Of a DNA stretch of 64,000 nt, positions 23,886-43,164 are shown one piece after another. Origin of the DNA: Olsenella sp. An188 (GTDB lineage: Bacteria; Actinomycetota; Coriobacteriia; Coriobacteriales; Atopobiaceae); the NCBI RefSeq assembly GCF_002160255.1, contig NZ_NFKF01000008.1, positions 62,001 to 126,000 of the forward strand, in the 5' to 3' direction. Under the pieces are notes generated by a model. It worked only from the letters and a program-made list of their open reading frames with translations. It did not search any database and was not told the origin of the DNA. How positions within the stretch are numbered: the first letter of the stretch is position 1; every line of letters starts with the position of its first letter. The position numbers and the translations under genes were made by a program.

Positions 23886-25799
23886 ATGACAAAGACGAGG
23901 AAGCCCGCCCCCGCGCGCCGCCAGCCGCTCGCGCGCGCCGCCGCGCGCGCCAAGTCTGACGCCGTCTTCCAGCGAAGGATCGACCGCCACCACGACGAGC
24001 TGCGCTGGCTCTACATGGAGCTCTACGACAACGGCTCGATGTTCGCCGAGCTCTGCGAGCAGTTGCACGCCTTCTTTGAGCGGCGCCCCGAGCCGCTCAA
24101 GCGCCTCGACGCCGAGCGCGAGGCCGCCGGCGCGTGGTACCGGCGCCGCGACCTTCTCGGCATGCAGCTCTACATAGACAACTTCGCCGGGACCATCCCC
24201 GGCGTGGAGGACCGGCTCGACTACATCGAGCGCTGCAACGTCAACTACCTGCACCTGATGCCGTTTTTGGACACGCCCGCCGACCGCAGCCGCTCCGACG
24301 GCGGCTACGCGGTACGCGACTTTCGCGCCGTCAAGCCCGAGCTCGGGACGATGGACGACCTCGCCCGCCTGGCCGAGCGCTGCCACGAGCGCGGCATCAG
24401 CCTGTGCATGGACTTCGTCATGAACCACACCTCCGACGAGCACGAGTGGGCCCGCCGCGCCCGCGCCGGCGAGGGCGAGTACATGAGCCGCTACTTCATC
24501 ACGGACGACCAGGGCGCGATGGAGCGCTACTCCCGCGACGTGCCCCAGGTCTTCCCCACCACGGCGCCCGGTCACTTCACCTACCTGCCGGAGCTCGGCA
24601 AGCACGTGATGACGCAGTTCTACCCCTACCAGTGGGACCTCAACTACAAGAACCCGCGCGTCTTCAACGAGATGATGTACAACTTCCTCTACCTGGCCAA
24701 CCAGGGCATCGACATCATCCGCCTGGACGCCGTTCCCTACATCTGGAAGCAGCTCGGGACCAACTGCCGCAACCTGCCGCAGGTCCACACCATCGTGCGC
24801 ATGATGCGCATGATCGCCGAGGTGGTGTGCCCGGGCATCGTGCTTCTGGGCGAGGTGGTCATGGCGCCGGCGGAGGTGGTTCCCTACTTCGGCACGCCGG
24901 ACAGGCCCGAGTGCCACATGCTCTACAACGTCACGACGATGGCGACCACCTGGCACACCGTGGCCTGCCGCGACACGCGCCTGCTGCGCGAGCAGCTCGC
25001 GACCGTCTGCGACCTGCCGCGCGAGTACACCTTCCTCAACTACCTGCGCTGCCACGACGACATCGGCTGGGGCCTGGACTACGACGCGCTGCGCCGCTGG
25101 GGCATGGAGGAGGTCCCGCACAAGGCCTACCTCAACTCCTACTTCCAGGGCCTCGAGCCCGGCAGCGTCTCGCGCGGTGAGCTCTACAACGCCGACCCCG
25201 TGACCGGCGACGCGCGCTTCTGCGCGACCACGGCATCCATGTGCGGCGTGGAGGCGGCCGGCTTCGAGGGCGACGAGGCGGCGATGGAGGTGGCCGTCCG
25301 CAAGGACGTCATGCTCCACGCCTACCTGCTCACGCAGTCGGGCCTGCCGATCATCTACAGCGGCGACGAGGTGGGCCAGGTCAACGACTACGCCTATAAG
25401 GACGACCCGGAGCGCGCCGACGACTCGCGCTACGTCCACCGCGGGCGCTTCGACTGGTCGCTCGTCGATCAGGTGGGCGAGAAGGGCAGCGTCGCGGCGC
25501 AGATCTTCGGCGCGCTCTCGCGCCTGGAGGCCGTGCGGCGAGGCGACGAGCTGTTCGACGCGGACGCGCAGGCCCACGTGGTCGACTACGGCGACCAGGC
25601 CATCCTGTGGATCGTGCGGCGCGCGGGCGGACGCGAGCTCAGCGCGGTCTTCAACTTCTCGGACGGCGAGAAGCACCTCTGGATGCCCGGGGAGGACGAG
25701 TACGTCGACCTCGTGAGCGGGGAGTCGTCGCGCTTCCAGGAGTTCGACCTGGCCGCATGGGACTTCCGCTGGTGGGTGCGCCGAGCGCCGGGCGCTTAA
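23886..25799 (+). CDS. Amylosucrase (GH13_4)
   Basis: 637 residues, matching the 636 of Neisseria amylosucrase. Catalytic triad in context: Asp 281 in IDIIRLDAVPYIWKQ, Glu 323 in LLGEVV, and Asp 391 in CHDDIGW, all spaced as in the Neisseria enzyme. Also conserved: DFVMNHTSDEHEWA, NYKNPRVF and DDSRYVHRGRF. It splits sucrose, transfers glucose onto alpha-glucan and releases fructose, acting without nucleotide sugars; some relatives (sucrose hydrolases) only hydrolyse. No signal peptide, so it works on intracellular sucrose. ATG follows GGAGGAACC. The upstream operator candidate links it to the LacI regulator at 34671; the fructokinase at 42211 could use the fructose released. Confidence 0.9.
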   Translation: MTKTRKPAPARRQPLARAAARAKSDAVFQRRIDRHHDELRWLYMELYDNGSMFAELCEQLHAFFERRPEPLKRLDAEREAAGAWYRRRDLLGMQLYIDNFAGTIPGVEDRLDYIERCNVNYLHLMPFLDTPADRSRSDGGYAVRDFRAVKPELGTMDDLARLAERCHERGISLCMDFVMNHTSDEHEWARRARAGEGEYMSRYFITDDQGAMERYSRDVPQVFPTTAPGHFTYLPELGKHVMTQFYPYQWDLNYKNPRVFNEMMYNFLYLANQGIDIIRLDAVPYIWKQLGTNCRNLPQVHTIVRMMRMIAEVVCPGIVLLGEVVMAPAEVVPYFGTPDRPECHMLYNVTTMATTWHTVACRDTRLLREQLATVCDLPREYTFLNYLRCHDDIGWGLDYDALRRWGMEEVPHKAYLNSYFQGLEPGSVSRGELYNADPVTGDARFCATTASMCGVEAAGFEGDEAAMEVAVRKDVMLHAYLLTQSGLPIIYSGDEVGQVNDYAYKDDPERADDSRYVHRGRFDWSLVDQVGEKGSVAAQIFGALSRLEAVRRGDELFDADAQAHVVDYGDQAILWIVRRAGGRELSAVFNFSDGEKHLWMPGEDEYVDLVSGESSRFQEFDLAAWDFRWWVRRAPGA

Positions 25800-34670: not shown

Positions 34671-35654
34671 ATGGACATCAACCAGATCGCGCAGATGGCG
34701 GGGGTCTCGCGGGCCACGGTCTCGCGCTACCTCAACGACGGCTACGTCAGCCAGGAGAAGCGCGCCGCCATCCGCCGCGTGATCGAGAAGACCGGCTACG
34801 TGCCGTCGCGGCAGGCCAAGACCCTGCGCACCGGCAAGACCGACGTCGTGGGCGTGGTGCTGCCCAAGATCAACTCCGCCTCGGTGAGCCGGATGGTCGC
34901 GGGCATCACGCTCGTGCTCAACGACGCCGGCTACCAGGTGCTCCTTGCCAACACCGACAACGACGTGGCGCGCGAGGTCGAGTTCCTGCGCCTGTTTGCC
35001 GAGAAGAGCCGCGTCGACGGCGTGATCCTCATAGCCACGGTGCTCACCCCCGAGCACGAGGCCGCCTTCTCCGCGCTGGGCGTCCCGCTCGTGGTGCTCG
35101 ACCAGAACGTGGCCGGGCGCACCTGCGTCTACCAGGACGACTTCGACGCCGTCCGCGACGTGACGCGGCTCGCCCTGCGCGGCGCGCGCCGCCCCGCCTA
35201 CATCGGCGTGCTCGAGGAGGACGTCTCCGCGGGCCGCATGCGCCGCGAGGGGTTCCTGGCGGCGTGCGCGGAGGCCGGCGTGGAGGTTCCGGACGAGGCG
35301 CTGGCCGTGGCCGAGTTCACCGTGGACTCCGGCTACGAGCAGGCCGAGGCGCTGCTCGGGCGGGTGGGCGACCTCGACGCCATCGTGTGCGCCACGGACT
35401 CGATCGCCTACGGCGCGCTCACCTGCCTGCGCGAGTACGGCCGGCGCGTCCCCGAGGACGTGGCCGTGACCGGCGTCGGCGACGCCGAGCTCTCGCAGAT
35501 CGTCACCCCCACCCTCACCACGGTCCACCATCACTACAAGACCTCCGGCGCCGAGGCGGCCAAGATGCTCGTGGGCATGATGACCGGCGACGACTCCGTG
35601 GGCCGCGAGCTCAAGATGGGCTACGACGTGGTGGCGAGAAACTCCACGAGGTAG
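34671..35654 (+). CDS. LacI-family regulator, probably of sucrose genes (ScrR-like)
   Basis: 327 residues: N-terminal HTH (NQIAQMAGVSRATVSRYLND) with hinge, then the periplasmic-binding-protein-like effector domain. All parts are intact. The ATG at 34671 follows GGAAGGGGGC. Position just upstream of the broken sucrose PTS and hydrolase, and the class of operator found at 35792, argue for ScrR; the effector would be sucrose-6-phosphate or fructose. With its PTS target decayed, its remaining plausible target in the window is amylosucrase. Confidence 0.82.
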   Translation: MDINQIAQMAGVSRATVSRYLNDGYVSQEKRAAIRRVIEKTGYVPSRQAKTLRTGKTDVVGVVLPKINSASVSRMVAGITLVLNDAGYQVLLANTDNDVAREVEFLRLFAEKSRVDGVILIATVLTPEHEAAFSALGVPLVVLDQNVAGRTCVYQDDFDAVRDVTRLALRGARRPAYIGVLEEDVSAGRMRREGFLAACAEAGVEVPDEALAVAEFTVDSGYEQAEALLGRVGDLDAIVCATDSIAYGALTCLREYGRRVPEDVAVTGVGDAELSQIVTPTLTTVHHHYKTSGAEAAKMLVGMMTGDDSVGRELKMGYDVVARNSTR

Positions 35655-35791: not shown

Positions 35792-35809
35792 TGTGAGAAC
35801 GATTTCACA
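35792..35809. promoter_or_regulatory. LacI-family operator in front of the decayed sucrose PTS
   Basis: TGTGAGAACGATTTCACA is an 18-bp near-perfect dyad centred on CG, as LacI/ScrR proteins bind. It follows the lacI stop by 138 bases and precedes the PTS reading frame by about 50. A TACACT hexamer at about 35829 could be the -10. Confidence 0.75.
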
Positions 35810-35858: not shown

Positions 35859-36833
35859 ATAGCACTGGACTACCGGCAGGCCGCCCAGGAGATCCTCGAC
35901 GCGATCGGCGGGCCCGGCAACGTGGTCTCCGCCGCGCACTGCGCCACGCGCCTGCGCCTCGTGCTCGCCGACGACGCGAAGGCCGACCAGGCCGCCGTCG
36001 ACAACGCGGCCGCCGCGCAGCAGCAGACCAACCCCCTCATGCGCGCCATCAAGCTCCTCGGCGACGTCTTCGTGCCCATCATCCCGGCCATCGTGCCCTC
36101 GGGCCTGCTCCTGGGCATCATGAGCGCGCTCTCCTTCATGGACGCCAACGGCTTCATCACGCTCCAGACCGACAACGCGTGGTACCAGATCCTGAACCTC
36201 GTCTCCAACACGGCCTTCACGTTCCTGCAGATCCTCATCGGCTTCTCCGCTGCCAAGGCCTTCGGCGCCAACCCCTACCTCGGCGCCGTCATCGGCATGC
36301 TGCTCATCAACCCCGCGCTGCAGAACGCCAACACCGTGGCCACCGAAGGCGTACAGCAGACCTACGCCGTGATCCCCGGCCTCTACTCCATCGAGTGGAC
36401 CGGCTACCAGGGCCACGTCATCCCCATCGTCATCGCCTGCGACATCCTCGCCTTCGTCGAGAAGCGCCTGCACAAGGTGGTCCCCGAGGCCTTCGACCTC
36501 TTCGTGACGCCGCTCGTCTCGGTGGCCGTCACCGCCTACGTGACCATGCTCGCCGTCGGGCCGGTCTTCGTCTGGGCGGAAAACGCCATCCTCGGCGCCA
36601 TCCAGTGGCTGATCACCCTGCCCGCCGGCATCAGCTCGCTCATCATGGGCGCTCTCTACGCGCCGACCGTCGTCACCGGCATCCACCAGATGTACACCAC
36701 CATCGACCTGGGCCAGATCGCCCAGTATGGCGTGACCTACTGGCTGCCGCTCGCCAGCGCCGACAACATCGGCCAGGCCGGCGCCGCACTCGCCGTGGCC
36801 CTCAAGACCAAGAGCGTCAAGATCCGCTCGCTG
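35859..36833 (+). pseudogene. scrA: Sucrose-type PTS EIIBC (scrA), 3' deleted and start codon lost
   Basis: The frame gives ALDYRQAAQEILDAIGGPGN (EIIB start), the phospho-Cys segment VVSAAHCATRLRL, then EIIC membrane segments with FVPIIPAIVPSGLLLGIM and YWLPLASADNIGQAGAAL. It stops matching at KTKSVKIRSLA, where intact proteins run on for some 100 more residues (GITEPAIFG motif absent). The position where the ATG is expected, after AGAAAGGGG, reads ATA; only CTG or GTT are near. Downstream of the break the DNA continues directly into a GH32 fragment in another frame. Truncated IICs do not work, so this is a pseudogene. Follows the LacI operator. Confidence 0.85.
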
Positions 36834-37293
36834 GCGCGCCGTGGACCGGGAGTTCGTCATCGCGCCGGACACGCCGGACGAGGCCTCGGGCGCCTACTCG
36901 GGGTGCGCCGTGCCGCACGCGGGAGGCGTGCGCTTCTACTACACCGGCAACGTCAAGGAGCCCGGAGACTTTGACTACGTGCACGACGGCCGGCGCTCCG
37001 TGCAGATCATCGTGGAGAGCCCGGACGGCTATCGCATGGGCAAGAAGAGCGTCCTGCTGAGAAACGCCGACTACCCGGCGTTCTGCACCCGTCACGTGCG
37101 CGACCCCAAGGTCTGACGCGAGGGCGGCGCCTGGTGGATGATCCTCGGCGCGCGCGACGTGGACGACCGCGGCCTCGTGCTCGTGCAGCGCTCGGACGAC
37201 GGTCTAAGGTGGGAGAACGCCGGGACCGTCCGCCCCGCGGAGCCCTTCGGCTACATGTGGGAGATGGGCGACGGCATGGCGGGCACGTACTGA
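36834..37293 (+). pseudogene. scrB: Sucrose-6-phosphate hydrolase (scrB, GH32) remnant
   Basis: The frame from about 36834 reads WRAVDREFVIAPDTPDEASG, YTGNVKEPGDFDYVHDGRRS, and the GH32 RDP motif in FCTRHVRDPKV; then TGA replaces the expected Trp codon (37115), after which the same frame continues GGAWWMILGARDVDDRGLVL to FGYMWE. It is cut there, at the Glu of the usual E-C-P catalytic motif, into unrelated MGDGMAGTY and a stop. The N-terminal WMNDPNG part is missing. So the gene is broken at both ends and within. Intact ScrB hydrolyses sucrose-6-P. Confidence 0.85.
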
Positions 37294-37334: not shown

Positions 37335-37337
37335 CTC

Positions 37338-37420
37338 ATCGTCTAAAAACGCGTGGACTTTTCTGGACGATTTGTCACCTTTTCGCCACGCAACCGAGCA
37401 GTCGGTTGCGTGGCTTTTTT
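37338..37420 (+). promoter_or_regulatory. Leader RNA with attenuator-type terminator
   Basis: A 12-bp perfect stem (37385-37396 with 37403-37414; arms GCCACGCAACCG and complement, loop AGCAGT) followed by TTTTTT is a strong terminator sitting between the promoter and the coding region. Upstream, GCGTGG at 37351-37356 can pair with CCACGC in the left arm, and ATCGTC (about 37338) can pair with GACGAT (about 37376) around it, so an alternative fold that prevents the terminator is possible. The class of riboswitch or attenuator, if any, is not recognised. Confidence 0.6.
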
Positions 37421-37508: not shown

Positions 37509-38495
37509 ATGGAACATATCACCCAGCAGCAAGGCGTCGTATCCGGCACCAGCGGCAGGCGGGGCGAGAAGAGCCAGATCACCGCCGCCCTGCAGGTGTT
37601 CGCGGGCGGCGCCTGCTACGGCGCGATGGCAACCACGTACAAGCTCGCCTACGCGGCGGGCTTCACCTCCGCGCAGGTGGTGGCGAGCCAGGCGTGGTTT
37701 GGCTGCCTCTTCTTTGGCGTCGCGGTCCTGGTCGGCCACGCCCGGGGGCGCCGGTGGGAGCGCCTGGGCCCGGCGCTCGCGCTCAGGCTCATGGTCCTGG
37801 GGGCCCTCACCTGCCTCACCTCGATCCTCTACTGCCACGCCATGAGCGTGCTGCCGGCCCCGGTGGCGCTCACGCTGCTCTTCCAGTTCACCTGGATGGG
37901 GCTCGTCTGGCAGACCGTCATGACGCGGCGGGCGCCCAGGCCCCTCGAGCTTGCCTCGGCCGCGGTCATCGTGCTGGGAACCGTCTTTGCGAGCGGCGTC
38001 TACAAGACCGGAATCGCCGGATATGACCCGATCGCCCTGGCCTGCGCCCTCGGGGCCGCCGTTACCTGCTCGCTTTTCGTCACGCTCTCCGGCAAGGTGC
38101 ACGCCCCCTGCTCCAACGAGCAGCGCGGCCTGTTTGTGACCGCCGGCTCCGTGATTATGTCGCTCACCGTCTGCCCCGACTACCTCGTCTCGGGCGTGCT
38201 CGGGGAGGGAATCCTGCCCTTCGCCGCCGTGGCGGGCTTCTTCGGCCTCATGTGCCCGGTCCTGCTCTTCGGCATGGGCTCCCCGCACCTGCCCGCGGGC
38301 CTCTCCACCGTCATGGCCGCCGCGGAGCTCCCCGCCGGCCTGCTCATCGCCATGATCGTCCTCGGCGAGCCGCTCGGCGTCGTCGAGTGGCTGGGCGTCG
38401 CCATCATCCTCGCCGGCGTGTGCCTGGCGCAGCTGCCCTCCCTGCTCGGCGGCAGGGCGGCCCGTCGCGCCGCCGCGGGCCAGGCAGCCAGCTAG
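37509..38495 (+). CDS. DMT-superfamily (EamA) transporter
   Basis: 328 residues with ten predicted membrane helices in two EamA repeats (about 30-165 and 175-315). Features include GGACYGAMATTYKLAYAAGF at the first repeat, PVALTLLFQFTW, GTVFASGVYKTG and LGEPLGVVEWLGVAIILAG at the end. Members export metabolites or amino acids; substrate unknown. Start ATG at 37509 after GAAGGGGAC. Expression probably starts at 37341 and passes an attenuator-like leader, so its substrate might be the leader's ligand. Confidence 0.8.
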   Translation: MEHITQQQGVVSGTSGRRGEKSQITAALQVFAGGACYGAMATTYKLAYAAGFTSAQVVASQAWFGCLFFGVAVLVGHARGRRWERLGPALALRLMVLGALTCLTSILYCHAMSVLPAPVALTLLFQFTWMGLVWQTVMTRRAPRPLELASAAVIVLGTVFASGVYKTGIAGYDPIALACALGAAVTCSLFVTLSGKVHAPCSNEQRGLFVTAGSVIMSLTVCPDYLVSGVLGEGILPFAAVAGFFGLMCPVLLFGMGSPHLPAGLSTVMAAAELPAGLLIAMIVLGEPLGVVEWLGVAIILAGVCLAQLPSLLGGRAARRAAAGQAAS

Positions 38496-40052
<1,557 letters not shown>

Positions 40053-40083
40053 CCGCCCGGGCAACATCCCTAAGGAGAGACTC

Positions 40084-42006
40084 ATGGCAGGAAAGTACGA
40101 CGATCTGGCCAGGTCCATACTCGAGAACGTGGGCGGCGCCGAGAACGTCACGAGCGTCGCGCACTGCATCACGCGCGTGCGCTTCAAGCTCAAGGACGAG
40201 TCGCGCGCCAACACGCCCAAGATCGAGGCCCTGAAGGGCGTCATCCAGGTCATCCAGGCCAACGGCCAGTACCAGGTGGTCGTGGGCAACATCGTGGAGG
40301 ACGTCTACGACGCGGTCCTGGAGGCCGGCGGGCTTGCGGGCGGCGGCAGCGCCGCCGAGGACGAGCCTGAGGGCGAGAAGACCGTGGCGTCGGTCATCAT
40401 CGACCTCATCTCGGGCATCTTCCAGCCCATCCTGGGACCGCTCGCCGCCGCGGGCATCATGAAGGGGCTTCTCGCCCTCTTCACCTACTTCGTCCCGGAC
40501 TTTGCCAACGACGGCCTCTACACGCTGCTCTACACCGTGGCGGACGGCTTCTTCTACTTCCTCCCCGTCGCCCTGGCGTTCAGCGCCGCGCGCAAGTTCC
40601 GCATGAACGAGTTCACCGGCGTGGCGATAGGCGTGGCGCTCGTCTACCCGACGATGGTCGCCCTGACCTCGGGCGAGGTCCTCGGCAGCATCGACCTCGG
40701 CGTCGCCGGCACGTTCTCGTGGTACGCAACCGCCCTCGGGATCCCCATCATCATGCCCGCCTCGGGCTACGCGAGCTCGGTGATTCCCGTCCTTCTCATG
40801 GTGTGGTTCGGCTCGCTCGTGGAGCGCTGGCTCAAGGGCTGGATGCCGGCGGCGCTCAAGATGTTCCTCGTCCCGCTCGCCACGATGACGGTCTCCATCG
40901 TCCTGGGCTACCTCGTCATCGGCCCGGTGGCCACCCTCATCACCAACCTGCTGAGCGCGGCGTTCTCGTTCATCTTCCAGCTCCCCGTGGTGGGCGCGGT
41001 CCTGGGCAGCGCCCTGGTCGGCGGGCTCTGGATGTGCCTCGTCATCTTTGGCTTCCACTGGAGCCTCATCCCCATCTCCATCATGAACCTGAACACCCTC
41101 GGCCACGACTACGTGCTCGCCGCCACCATCGGGCACGGGTTCGCGCTCGGCGCGGTCATCTTCGCCATGTACCTCAGGAACAGGGACGAGCGCTTCCGCG
41201 GCATCGCCCTCCCCGCGATGATCTCCGCGTTCTTCTTCGGCGTCACCGAGCCGGGCATCTACGGCGTCGCCCTCCCCAACAAGCGCGCGTTCGTCGTGGC
41301 GTGCCTGAGCTCCGCCGTGGGCGGCGCCATCGTGGGGATGACGGGCGCCCTCATGTACATCTCGGGCGGGCTCGGCGTCTTCAACCTGCTCAACTTCATC
41401 GACGAGACCCCCGGCGGCGTCGGGATCTCCCACATGGTCTTCGCGATCGTCGCCTCGCTCGTCTCGGCGGTCCTGGCCTTCGTCGTCGAGTTCGTTACCT
41501 ACCGGCCTGATGCCGAGGAGGGCGCGCCCGAGCTCGCGCCCGTCCAGACCGAGTACGAGCGCGGCACCGTCTGCTCCCCCGTCACCGGCTCCGTGGTCCA
41601 GCTCTCCGAGACCGCCGATCCCGTGTTCTCCTCCGGGGCGATGGGCGCCGGCGTCGCCGTGAGCCCCGCCGAGGAGACGGTCTTCTCGCCGGTCTCCGGC
41701 ACCGTGCTCTCCGCCATGCCGCACGCCGTGGGCATCCTCGCCGACGACGGCTCCGAGGTACTCGTGCACGTGGGCATCGACACGGTGGAGATGGCCGGTG
41801 ACGGCCTGACCTGCCACGTCCAGCAGGACGCCCGCGTGACGGCGGGAGACCCCATCGTGACCTTCTCCAAGGCCAAGGTCGCCGCGGCGGGAAAGCAGGA
41901 CACGGTCTTCGTCATCGTGACCAACGCCGACGACTTCGCCTCCGTCCAGCCGCGCGAGGACGGTCCCGTCACCGCCGGCAGCCCGGTCATCCGCGTGACG
42001 CGCTAG
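40084..42006 (+). CDS. bglF: Beta-glucoside PTS EIIBCA
   Basis: 640 residues with three domains in B-C-A order: EIIB with the phospho-Cys in SVAHCITRVRFKL (about 26), EIIC of about ten helices from 100 to 460 with a GVTEPGIYGVALP motif, and EIIA (from about 490) ending in the EVLVHVGIDTVEM His segment. Unlike scrA above, this protein is complete. It imports and phosphorylates beta-glucosides and feeds bglA. No BglG antiterminator gene is adjacent and I see no RAT site. Ribosome binding site AAGGAGA before the ATG. Confidence 0.9.
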   Translation: MAGKYDDLARSILENVGGAENVTSVAHCITRVRFKLKDESRANTPKIEALKGVIQVIQANGQYQVVVGNIVEDVYDAVLEAGGLAGGGSAAEDEPEGEKTVASVIIDLISGIFQPILGPLAAAGIMKGLLALFTYFVPDFANDGLYTLLYTVADGFFYFLPVALAFSAARKFRMNEFTGVAIGVALVYPTMVALTSGEVLGSIDLGVAGTFSWYATALGIPIIMPASGYASSVIPVLLMVWFGSLVERWLKGWMPAALKMFLVPLATMTVSIVLGYLVIGPVATLITNLLSAAFSFIFQLPVVGAVLGSALVGGLWMCLVIFGFHWSLIPISIMNLNTLGHDYVLAATIGHGFALGAVIFAMYLRNRDERFRGIALPAMISAFFFGVTEPGIYGVALPNKRAFVVACLSSAVGGAIVGMTGALMYISGGLGVFNLLNFIDETPGGVGISHMVFAIVASLVSAVLAFVVEFVTYRPDAEEGAPELAPVQTEYERGTVCSPVTGSVVQLSETADPVFSSGAMGAGVAVSPAEETVFSPVSGTVLSAMPHAVGILADDGSEVLVHVGIDTVEMAGDGLTCHVQQDARVTAGDPIVTFSKAKVAAAGKQDTVFVIVTNADDFASVQPREDGPVTAGSPVIRVTR

Positions 42007-42161: not shown

Positions 42162-42187
42162 GCGATAATGGGCATGGAATCGATTTC
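42162..42187 (+). promoter_or_regulatory. Candidate promoter and dyad of the fructokinase gene
   Basis: GATAAT at 42164-42169 could be a -10, with GGAATCGATTTC (42176-42187) just downstream, a short dyad centred on CG of the kind LacI proteins bind. The half-site differs from the TGTGAGAACG operators, so the regulator may be different. Low confidence. Confidence 0.35.
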
Positions 42188-42210: not shown

Positions 42211-43164
42211 ATGTTCTCTGTCTCCGCACTGGGAGAGCTCCTCATCGACTTCACCGACGCCGGCACGTCCGAGGGCGGCCAGCAGCTGTTCGAGCGCAAC
42301 GCCGGAGGCGCGCCCGCCAACGTGCTCGTGGCCCTGCAGAAGCTCGGGCACAGGACGGCGTTTCTCGGCAAGGTGGGCGACGACATGCACGGCGCGTTCC
42401 TGCGCGCCACGCTCGAGGCCAACGGCATCGACACCACGGGCCTGATCAGCGACCCGGACGCCTTCACCACGCTCGCCTTCGTCGCCCTCTCCGCAAACGG
42501 CGAGCGCGAGTTCTCCTTCGCGCGCAAGCCCGGCGCGGACACCCGCATCACCGCGGACGAGCTCGCCCGCGACGTGATCGGCGACTCGCGCGTCTTCCAC
42601 GTGGGCTCGCTCTCGCTCACCGACGAGCCCGCACGCTCCGCCACGCTCGCCGCCCTCGACGCCGCGCGCGAGGCCGGTTGCGTCCTCTCCTACGACCCCA
42701 ACTACCGCGCGAACCTCTGGCCGAGCGTCGACGCGGCCGTGGCGCAGATGCGCTCCGTGGTGGGCAGGATGGACCTCATGAAGCTCTCGGACGAGGAGTG
42801 CGAGCTGCTCACCGGCGAGAAGGACCCGCGCGCCGCGGCCGACGCGCTGCTCGGAGCCGGGCCCAAGGTCGTTGCCGTGACGCTCGGCGCAGGCGGCGCC
42901 TACGTGGCCTGCGCCGACGGCGGGCGCGAGGTCGCGGGCTTCCCCGCCGAGGCCGTTGACGCCACGGGCGCCGGCGACTCGTTCTGGGGCGGCTTCCTCG
43001 CCGGCTTCTGCGAGAGCGGCCTCGCGCCGGCCGACGTCACCGCAGACGACGCCGCCGGCTTCGCGCGCCTCGGCAACGCCGTGGCGTCGCTGTGCGTCCG
43101 CAGGCGCGGCGCCATCCCCGCCATGCCGGAGCGCGAGCAGGTCATGGAGCTCCTGGGCGCCTAG
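42211..43164 (+). CDS. scrK: PfkB-family fructokinase
   Basis: 317 residues. PfkB signature 1 GGAPANVLVALQKLG near 35, a lid with SFARKPGADT, and signature 2 AVDATGAGDSFWGGFLAGF with the catalytic Asp. Length and features fit ScrK/Frk. It phosphorylates free fructose at C6 with ATP. In this locus it would take up the fructose released by amylosucrase (or lost ScrB), so it is the one intact member of the original sucrose set besides the regulator; a ribokinase-type role on other sugars is the alternative. ATG at 42211 after CGAAAGGATC. Confidence 0.85.
   Translation: MFSVSALGELLIDFTDAGTSEGGQQLFERNAGGAPANVLVALQKLGHRTAFLGKVGDDMHGAFLRATLEANGIDTTGLISDPDAFTTLAFVALSANGEREFSFARKPGADTRITADELARDVIGDSRVFHVGSLSLTDEPARSATLAALDAAREAGCVLSYDPNYRANLWPSVDAAVAQMRSVVGRMDLMKLSDEECELLTGEKDPRAAADALLGAGPKVVAVTLGAGGAYVACADGGREVAGFPAEAVDATGAGDSFWGGFLAGFCESGLAPADVTADDAAGFARLGNAVASLCVRRRGAIPAMPEREQVMELLGA

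Follow-up and report, generated by a model that had tools for sequence, protein, structure and literature searches.

Probable pseudogenes of a sucrose PTS operon beside intact regulator and kinase genes in Olsenella sp. An188

Sucrose PTS operons combine scrA, scrB, scrK and a LacI-family regulator, and the same gene set in the same order is found in genomes of the genus examined here, G001 and G003 among them. The Olsenella locus described below differs from these usual operons in that scrA and scrB are broken, and the kinase gene has been split off by a cassette and has an upstream palindrome of its own. It resembles the deletion-driven removal of bacterial pseudogenes, in which young disrupted genes shed sequence (Kuo and Ochman 2010, PMC2916853), and differs from that case in that the outer genes of an operon persist here and sister species display other stages. 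Genes for sucrose use have also been lost within another genus, in Spiroplasma taiwanense, where the loss of sugar genes includes scrB and scrK (PMC5726471); here, in contrast, the kinase and regulator genes remain. For the cassette next to scrB, a likeness is offered by human gut bacteria, in which Wolff and Garud (PMC12916291) describe gene-specific sweeps at carbohydrate loci, carbohydrate genes being spread by recombination, although in our case genes are exchanged among species of a single genus, as read from sequence identity rather than from population statistics. Our search of the open-licence PMC literature turned up no account of scr decay in bacteria of the Olsenella type, which is no proof of absence, and the part of PMC9748033 that we consulted does not mention a sucrose PTS in Olsenella.

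The window, the whole stretch of 64,000 nucleotides that was analysed, corresponds to bases 62001–126000 of a 127.7 kb contig in a draft genome of 2.136 Mb and 16 contigs, and its list of open reading frames was filtered by codon-position GC. Comparisons were made within a set of 31 genus genomes, the window's own included, in which the species of the window is represented by one draft assembly. The tblastn survey of the genus left out pieces below 55% identity, and the deletions were mapped against 17 relatives, three of which lack the body of scrA. The scr locus reads, in order, LacI, scrA remnant, scrB remnant, EamA/DMT transporter, 6-phospho-β-glucosidase, β-glucoside PTS IIABC and PfkB-type kinase, with the following features (window coordinates):

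23886–25799, plus strand: amylosucrase/sucrose hydrolase family (GH13) gene, by similarity to solved amylosucrases
34671–35654, plus strand: LacI-family regulator of the scr locus, intact, 327 aa, from domain models
35792–35809, no strand assigned: operator-like palindrome TGTGAGAACGATTTCACA, the first of the relatives' two tandem operators, from pattern and alignment
35859–35861, plus strand: ATA at the scrA start position, by comparison with relatives' start codons
35859–36832, plus strand: scrA remnant, first half of EIIB and most of EIIC, from model matches, alignment of relatives and translation
36006–36012, plus strand: D1 joint (about 36008), 135 bp lost in frame inside EIIB, from alignment of relatives
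36828–36832, plus strand: D2 joint, scrA joined to scrB out of frame, from alignment of relatives
36833–37293, plus strand: scrB (GH32) remnant with its natural C-terminus and stop (37291–37293), from model matches and translation
37114–37116, plus strand: premature TGA in scrB
37258–37263, plus strand: D3 joint at TGGGAG, in frame, inside scrB, from alignment of relatives and translation
37509–42006, plus strand: cassette splitting scrB from the kinase gene, from models and relatives' gene order
37509–38495, plus strand: EamA/DMT transporter of the cassette
38622–40052, plus strand: 6-phospho-β-glucosidase of the cassette
40084–42006, plus strand: β-glucoside PTS IIABC of the cassette
42176–42187, no strand assigned: palindrome GGAATCGATTTC upstream of the kinase gene in the form found in this genome, from a 24-locus comparison
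42211–43164, plus strand: PfkB-type sugar kinase, intact, 317 aa, probably fructokinase ScrK, from models and relatives' gene order

Lesions in scrA and scrB

The scrA and scrB sequences of the window are homologous to the open genes of relatives and interrupted by deletions and a stop, and are very probably pseudogenes from a sucrose operon (LacI, ScrA, ScrB, ScrK) that was formerly functional. The best NCBIfam family of the scrA remnant is sucrose PTS IIBC (TIGR01996), matched at 327.7 bits against a cut-off of 559.3, and that of the scrB remnant is scrB_fam (TIGR01322), at 48.2 bits against 356.4; both miss the cut-offs because they are truncated. As judged from its sequence, with the TIGR01996 cut-off missed and the domains incomplete, scrA is a remnant and not a working member of the ScrA family.

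Three deletions, D1 to D3, were resolved by aligning the locus to the scrA and scrB genes of relatives, a mapping that an earlier sequence-only reading of this DNA had proposed. D1, which that reading did not mention, measures 135 bp against all 14 relatives that have both sides. D2 removes 1101–1385 bp across the end of scrA and the start of scrB (14 relatives with both sides), and here the earlier description is borne out, with the end of the IIC domain lost near 36833 (the match to relatives stops at about 36832) and scrA running straight into scrB in a different frame, as seen in both alignment and translation. D3 measures 741–750 bp against 16 of the 17 relatives, every size being a multiple of three, while G008 has no right-hand match; it fuses the catalytic MWE region (...FGYMWE) in frame to the C-terminal WEMGDGMAGTY, followed by the natural stop. 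The D2 and D3 joints are spanned by no other genome of the 31-genome set, and both seem specific to this lineage as far as it has been sampled. Together with the nonsense codon, the three deletions strip the second half of EIIB, the end of EIIC and EIIA, which the scrA of relatives includes, and from ScrB approximately the first 60 residues, including WLNDPNG, and nearly everything after the catalytic Glu.

ScrB enzymes (GH32) have an N-terminal WMNDPNG-type motif and a catalytic Glu. The absence of the WMNDPNG part, claimed earlier, agrees with the alignment, in which the region carrying W(L)NDPNG in relatives is missing from the window translation; G003 has both this motif and the sequence that follows the catalytic Glu. 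A TGA in place of Trp had also been read in scrB, and TGG indeed stands at that codon in 18 of 18 genus relatives with scrB. The further statement that scrB is cut at the catalytic Glu holds in that nearly all sequence after it is lost, but not as a simple cut, D3 rejoining the natural C-terminus.

A strict count of the bases shared at the joints gives at most three for D1, none for D2 and six for D3 (TGGGAG, exact in 4 of 13 relatives), with up to five at D2 when a local alignment with G018 is judged by eye. Longer joint repeats indicated by BLAST overlaps (15, 6 and 11 bases) were set aside when the strict count came out weaker. Direct-repeat slippage is supported for D3 only, and not for D1 or D2. 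Two copies of TGGGAG may have recombined or slipped to give D3, whereas no more than a few shared bases would have been involved in D1 and D2. The deletions presumably arose once selection on sucrose uptake relaxed, and the scr PTS would no longer import sucrose.

The sequence rests on a draft assembly of 16 contigs, and the genes might be intact in the organism and the joints artefacts of assembly or sequencing. Usual assembly overlaps are far longer than joint repeats of a few bases, and the shared bases seen here are few and far below that length; moreover, such an error would have to account for three joints, a premature stop and a changed start codon, all within one operon in which LacI, kinase and cassette genes are open, at a locus internal to a 127.7 kb contig, while two relatives carry different scrA damage. 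An error of this kind is highly improbable. A search of the genome with models found no intact second copy of scrA or scrB: no GH32 gene besides the scrB remnant was matched, and the sucrose PTS model gave five matches over the whole genome, none up to the cut-off.

The ATA where scrA should start is present, as had been noted, but its description as a lost start is doubtful. Among 15 genus relatives with scrA, the start codon is ATG in 12, GTG in one (G030) and ATA in one (G015), the region being missing in the last (G029). Since the G015 scrA, with its ATA, is otherwise open over 659 residues, ATA alone is no proof of lost function. AUA can initiate translation weakly in E. coli. In the window, the ATA perhaps acts as a weak start or marks an early stage of decay. 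In G015 the ATA lies at L065:7786-7788 (minus strand), the same codon as in the window within a different flanking sequence.

Two observations sit less easily with decay: both D1 and D3 preserve the reading frame, something that neutral decay would not demand, and the ATA may, judging from G015, be a working weak start. They bear on the idea that the shortened genes still encode something useful, such as a truncated EIIC membrane protein. D1 and D3 keep the frame against all relatives that have both sides (14 and 16, respectively), the scrA reading frame stays open up to 36974, and G015 has the same ATA on an otherwise open scrA. Against this, scrA has lost EIIA, the end of EIIC and half of EIIB; scrB, interrupted by an internal TGA, is missing its N-terminal motif as well as nearly all sequence past the catalytic Glu; and two in-frame deletions would occur by chance about 1 time in 9. 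We consider useful products very unlikely, and retain the pseudogene reading.

Regulator, kinase and their upstream regions

The regulator and fructokinase had been called intact, and both frames are open, the identity of the fructokinase being probable. LacI exceeds the cut-offs of PF00356, PF00532 and PF13377, with an HTH and a sugar-binding domain in an open frame, and its gene has a DNA match in 29 of the 31 genus genomes. The kinase gene, found in 24 of the 31, encodes a protein that scores 203.2 of 450 bits with the PRK09434 fructokinase model and 205.4 of 300 with an iolC-type kinase model; fructokinase is favoured because in some relatives, G001 and G003 among them, the gene adjoins scrB, and the product is probably ScrK.

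Two tandem operator-like palindromes precede scrA in all 14 relatives whose start region was read. The window has kept the first and lost the second, a point absent from the earlier reading, and G029, in which the scrA start is missing, likewise has the first only, so the loss of the second operator may predate this species. With up to two mismatches allowed, the first-operator pattern has one site in the genome (its two rows are the two strands); a reversed control pattern also matched once per strand, as often as the pattern itself, and the pattern alone is therefore no evidence. Upstream of the kinase gene, the palindrome reads GGAATCGATTCC at 18 of 24 loci, GGAATCGATTTC at three (the window counted) and otherwise at two, with one not read. 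The kinase gene is preceded by an upstream region of its own that contains a conserved palindrome, to which LacI probably binds, and fructose may reach ScrK from other sources; this would explain why LacI and ScrK survive.

Approximately 10 kb upstream of the scr locus lies the amylosucrase-family gene, which matches solved amylosucrases at near full length (E = 8.4e-139, residues 35–602 of the 645 searched) and has a match in 28 of the 31 genus genomes. It is a possible other sucrose-using enzyme, and with it the earlier wording that one route of sucrose use has decayed seems reasonable. The other GH13 genes of the genome were read and none was assigned to sucrose. No other means of bringing in sucrose was identified, the genome having been searched with the sucrose PTS model and the neighbours of the amylosucrase-family gene listed as open reading frames.

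A β-glucoside cassette between scrB and the kinase gene

That the cassette stands between scrB and the kinase gene had gone unmentioned in the earlier reading. Its bgl stretch (38622–42006) shares a rounded 100% identity with G022, 99% with G008, 98% with G015 and 95% with G019, and matches G027 in two pieces (97% and 88%), forming a mosaic in which fully identical tracts are mixed with tracts of 80–90% identity. A separate background stretch of 9.1 kb is mostly 77–92% identical in the same genomes, a range that excludes weaker, partly paralogous matches at 67–76%. Because the bgl stretch is near-identical against such a background, its sequence points to recent exchange between species of the genus.

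Could the cassette have driven the decay, its import, or the niche it opened, making scrAB dispensable? It sits between scrB and the kinase gene, its bgl part is 95–100% identical to G019, G022, G008 and G015 against a background of mostly 77–92%, and D3 falls within a tract 96–100% identical to G019. However, G015 (with its ATA start), G022 and G027 combine the cassette with an open scrA and a full-length scrB, and scrAB are also absent where the cassette is unmatched, as in G005, G007 and G025. Such a role for the cassette is unlikely, and its arrival as a sufficient cause of scr decay is ruled out by G015, G022 and G027.

Upstream of the EamA/DMT gene, at 37337–37419, lies a very conserved leader of about 80 nt with a terminator-like hairpin at its end. 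It occurs at 24 places (the window's own counted) in 22 of 60 genomes, two of them from another family, and at 22 of the 24 an EamA/DMT open reading frame starts 45–115 bases downstream; at the remaining two none was found within the stretch examined. Both sides of the stem vary between copies (12 aligned sequences, compared by their letters only). Against Rfam the leader gave no match at the gathering score; below that score the opposite strand had a single match, at chance level. It is a candidate cis-regulatory RNA or attenuator.

Loss of scrA in the genus and the age of the lesions

Among the 15 relatives with scrA, the gene is open in 13 (in G030 spread over two contig pieces) and damaged in two. 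In G008 it is frameshifted near codon 19 (L061:4341-4395), which is either an independent defect or a sequencing error, and in G029 its first codons are missing. In three further genomes, G006 (L060), G017 (L066) and G019 (L068), a 9-codon scrA stub, MALDYRQAA, stands before a full-length scrB. Ten genomes have kept LacI and in a DNA search have neither a scrA nor a scrB ortholog, seven of them with the kinase gene; several of these are incomplete drafts (e.g. G020 81%, G016 85% and G024 89% complete), and in two, G009 and G016, other GH32 genes are present.

A tree was built from LacI with 29 rows; coming from one gene of the locus, it can follow species history only roughly. A label of full scrA takes 6 changes on it, and well supported branches make at least 4 of them necessary. 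The window clusters first with G029, next with G002 and then with G008, and scrA is damaged in three of these four. The changes on the tree may be gains or losses, and the stubs and broken copies show, at the level of sequence, losses in at least some lineages; by the same evidence, scrA loss is recurrent in the genus. A wider view would be that scrA is repeatedly discarded from this slot, in at least some lineages by way of an AUA low-expression step, while the bgl cassette spreads into it at up to about 100% identity, as a repeated selected swap of sucrose for β-glucoside use with the regulator and fructokinase kept; we put this forward as a speculation that is very probably wrong.

The earlier description of recent, stepwise decay is well founded as to steps, several separate lesions having accumulated in one transport and hydrolysis pair beside an intact regulator and kinase. 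That it may also be recent fits the identity of the remnants to genus relatives (88–92% for the main part of scrA, 75–91% for scrB). Relaxed selection was sought in private nonsynonymous and synonymous changes (N:S), relatives with coverage below 90% being dropped from each set. In the EIIC part of scrA the window has 6:2 against 28:41 pooled in 14 others (p = 0.13), in the EIIB part 1:1 against 4:6 and in scrB 2:1 against 30:22, neither significant; the intact kinase gene has 4:1 against 44:58 (p = 0.17), a skew similar to that of scrA, and the intact LacI 3:5 against 54:43. With no significant result and the intact controls, LacI and kinase, inseparable from the remnants, the test gives relaxed selection no real support and no exclusion. 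The G029 scrA alone has 17 to 8, a ratio that a decaying copy might show.

The window captures an operon in decay with several readable lesions, and this is ordinary, well resolved pseudogenisation that leaves known biology unchanged. Its sister species show scrA open, with an altered start, frameshifted, without its 5' end, reduced to a 9-codon stub or absent, and because they show these other stages of losing scrA, the genus is useful as a natural series for asking in what sequence the parts of a sugar operon disappear, and what lets the regulator and kinase so often survive the rest.
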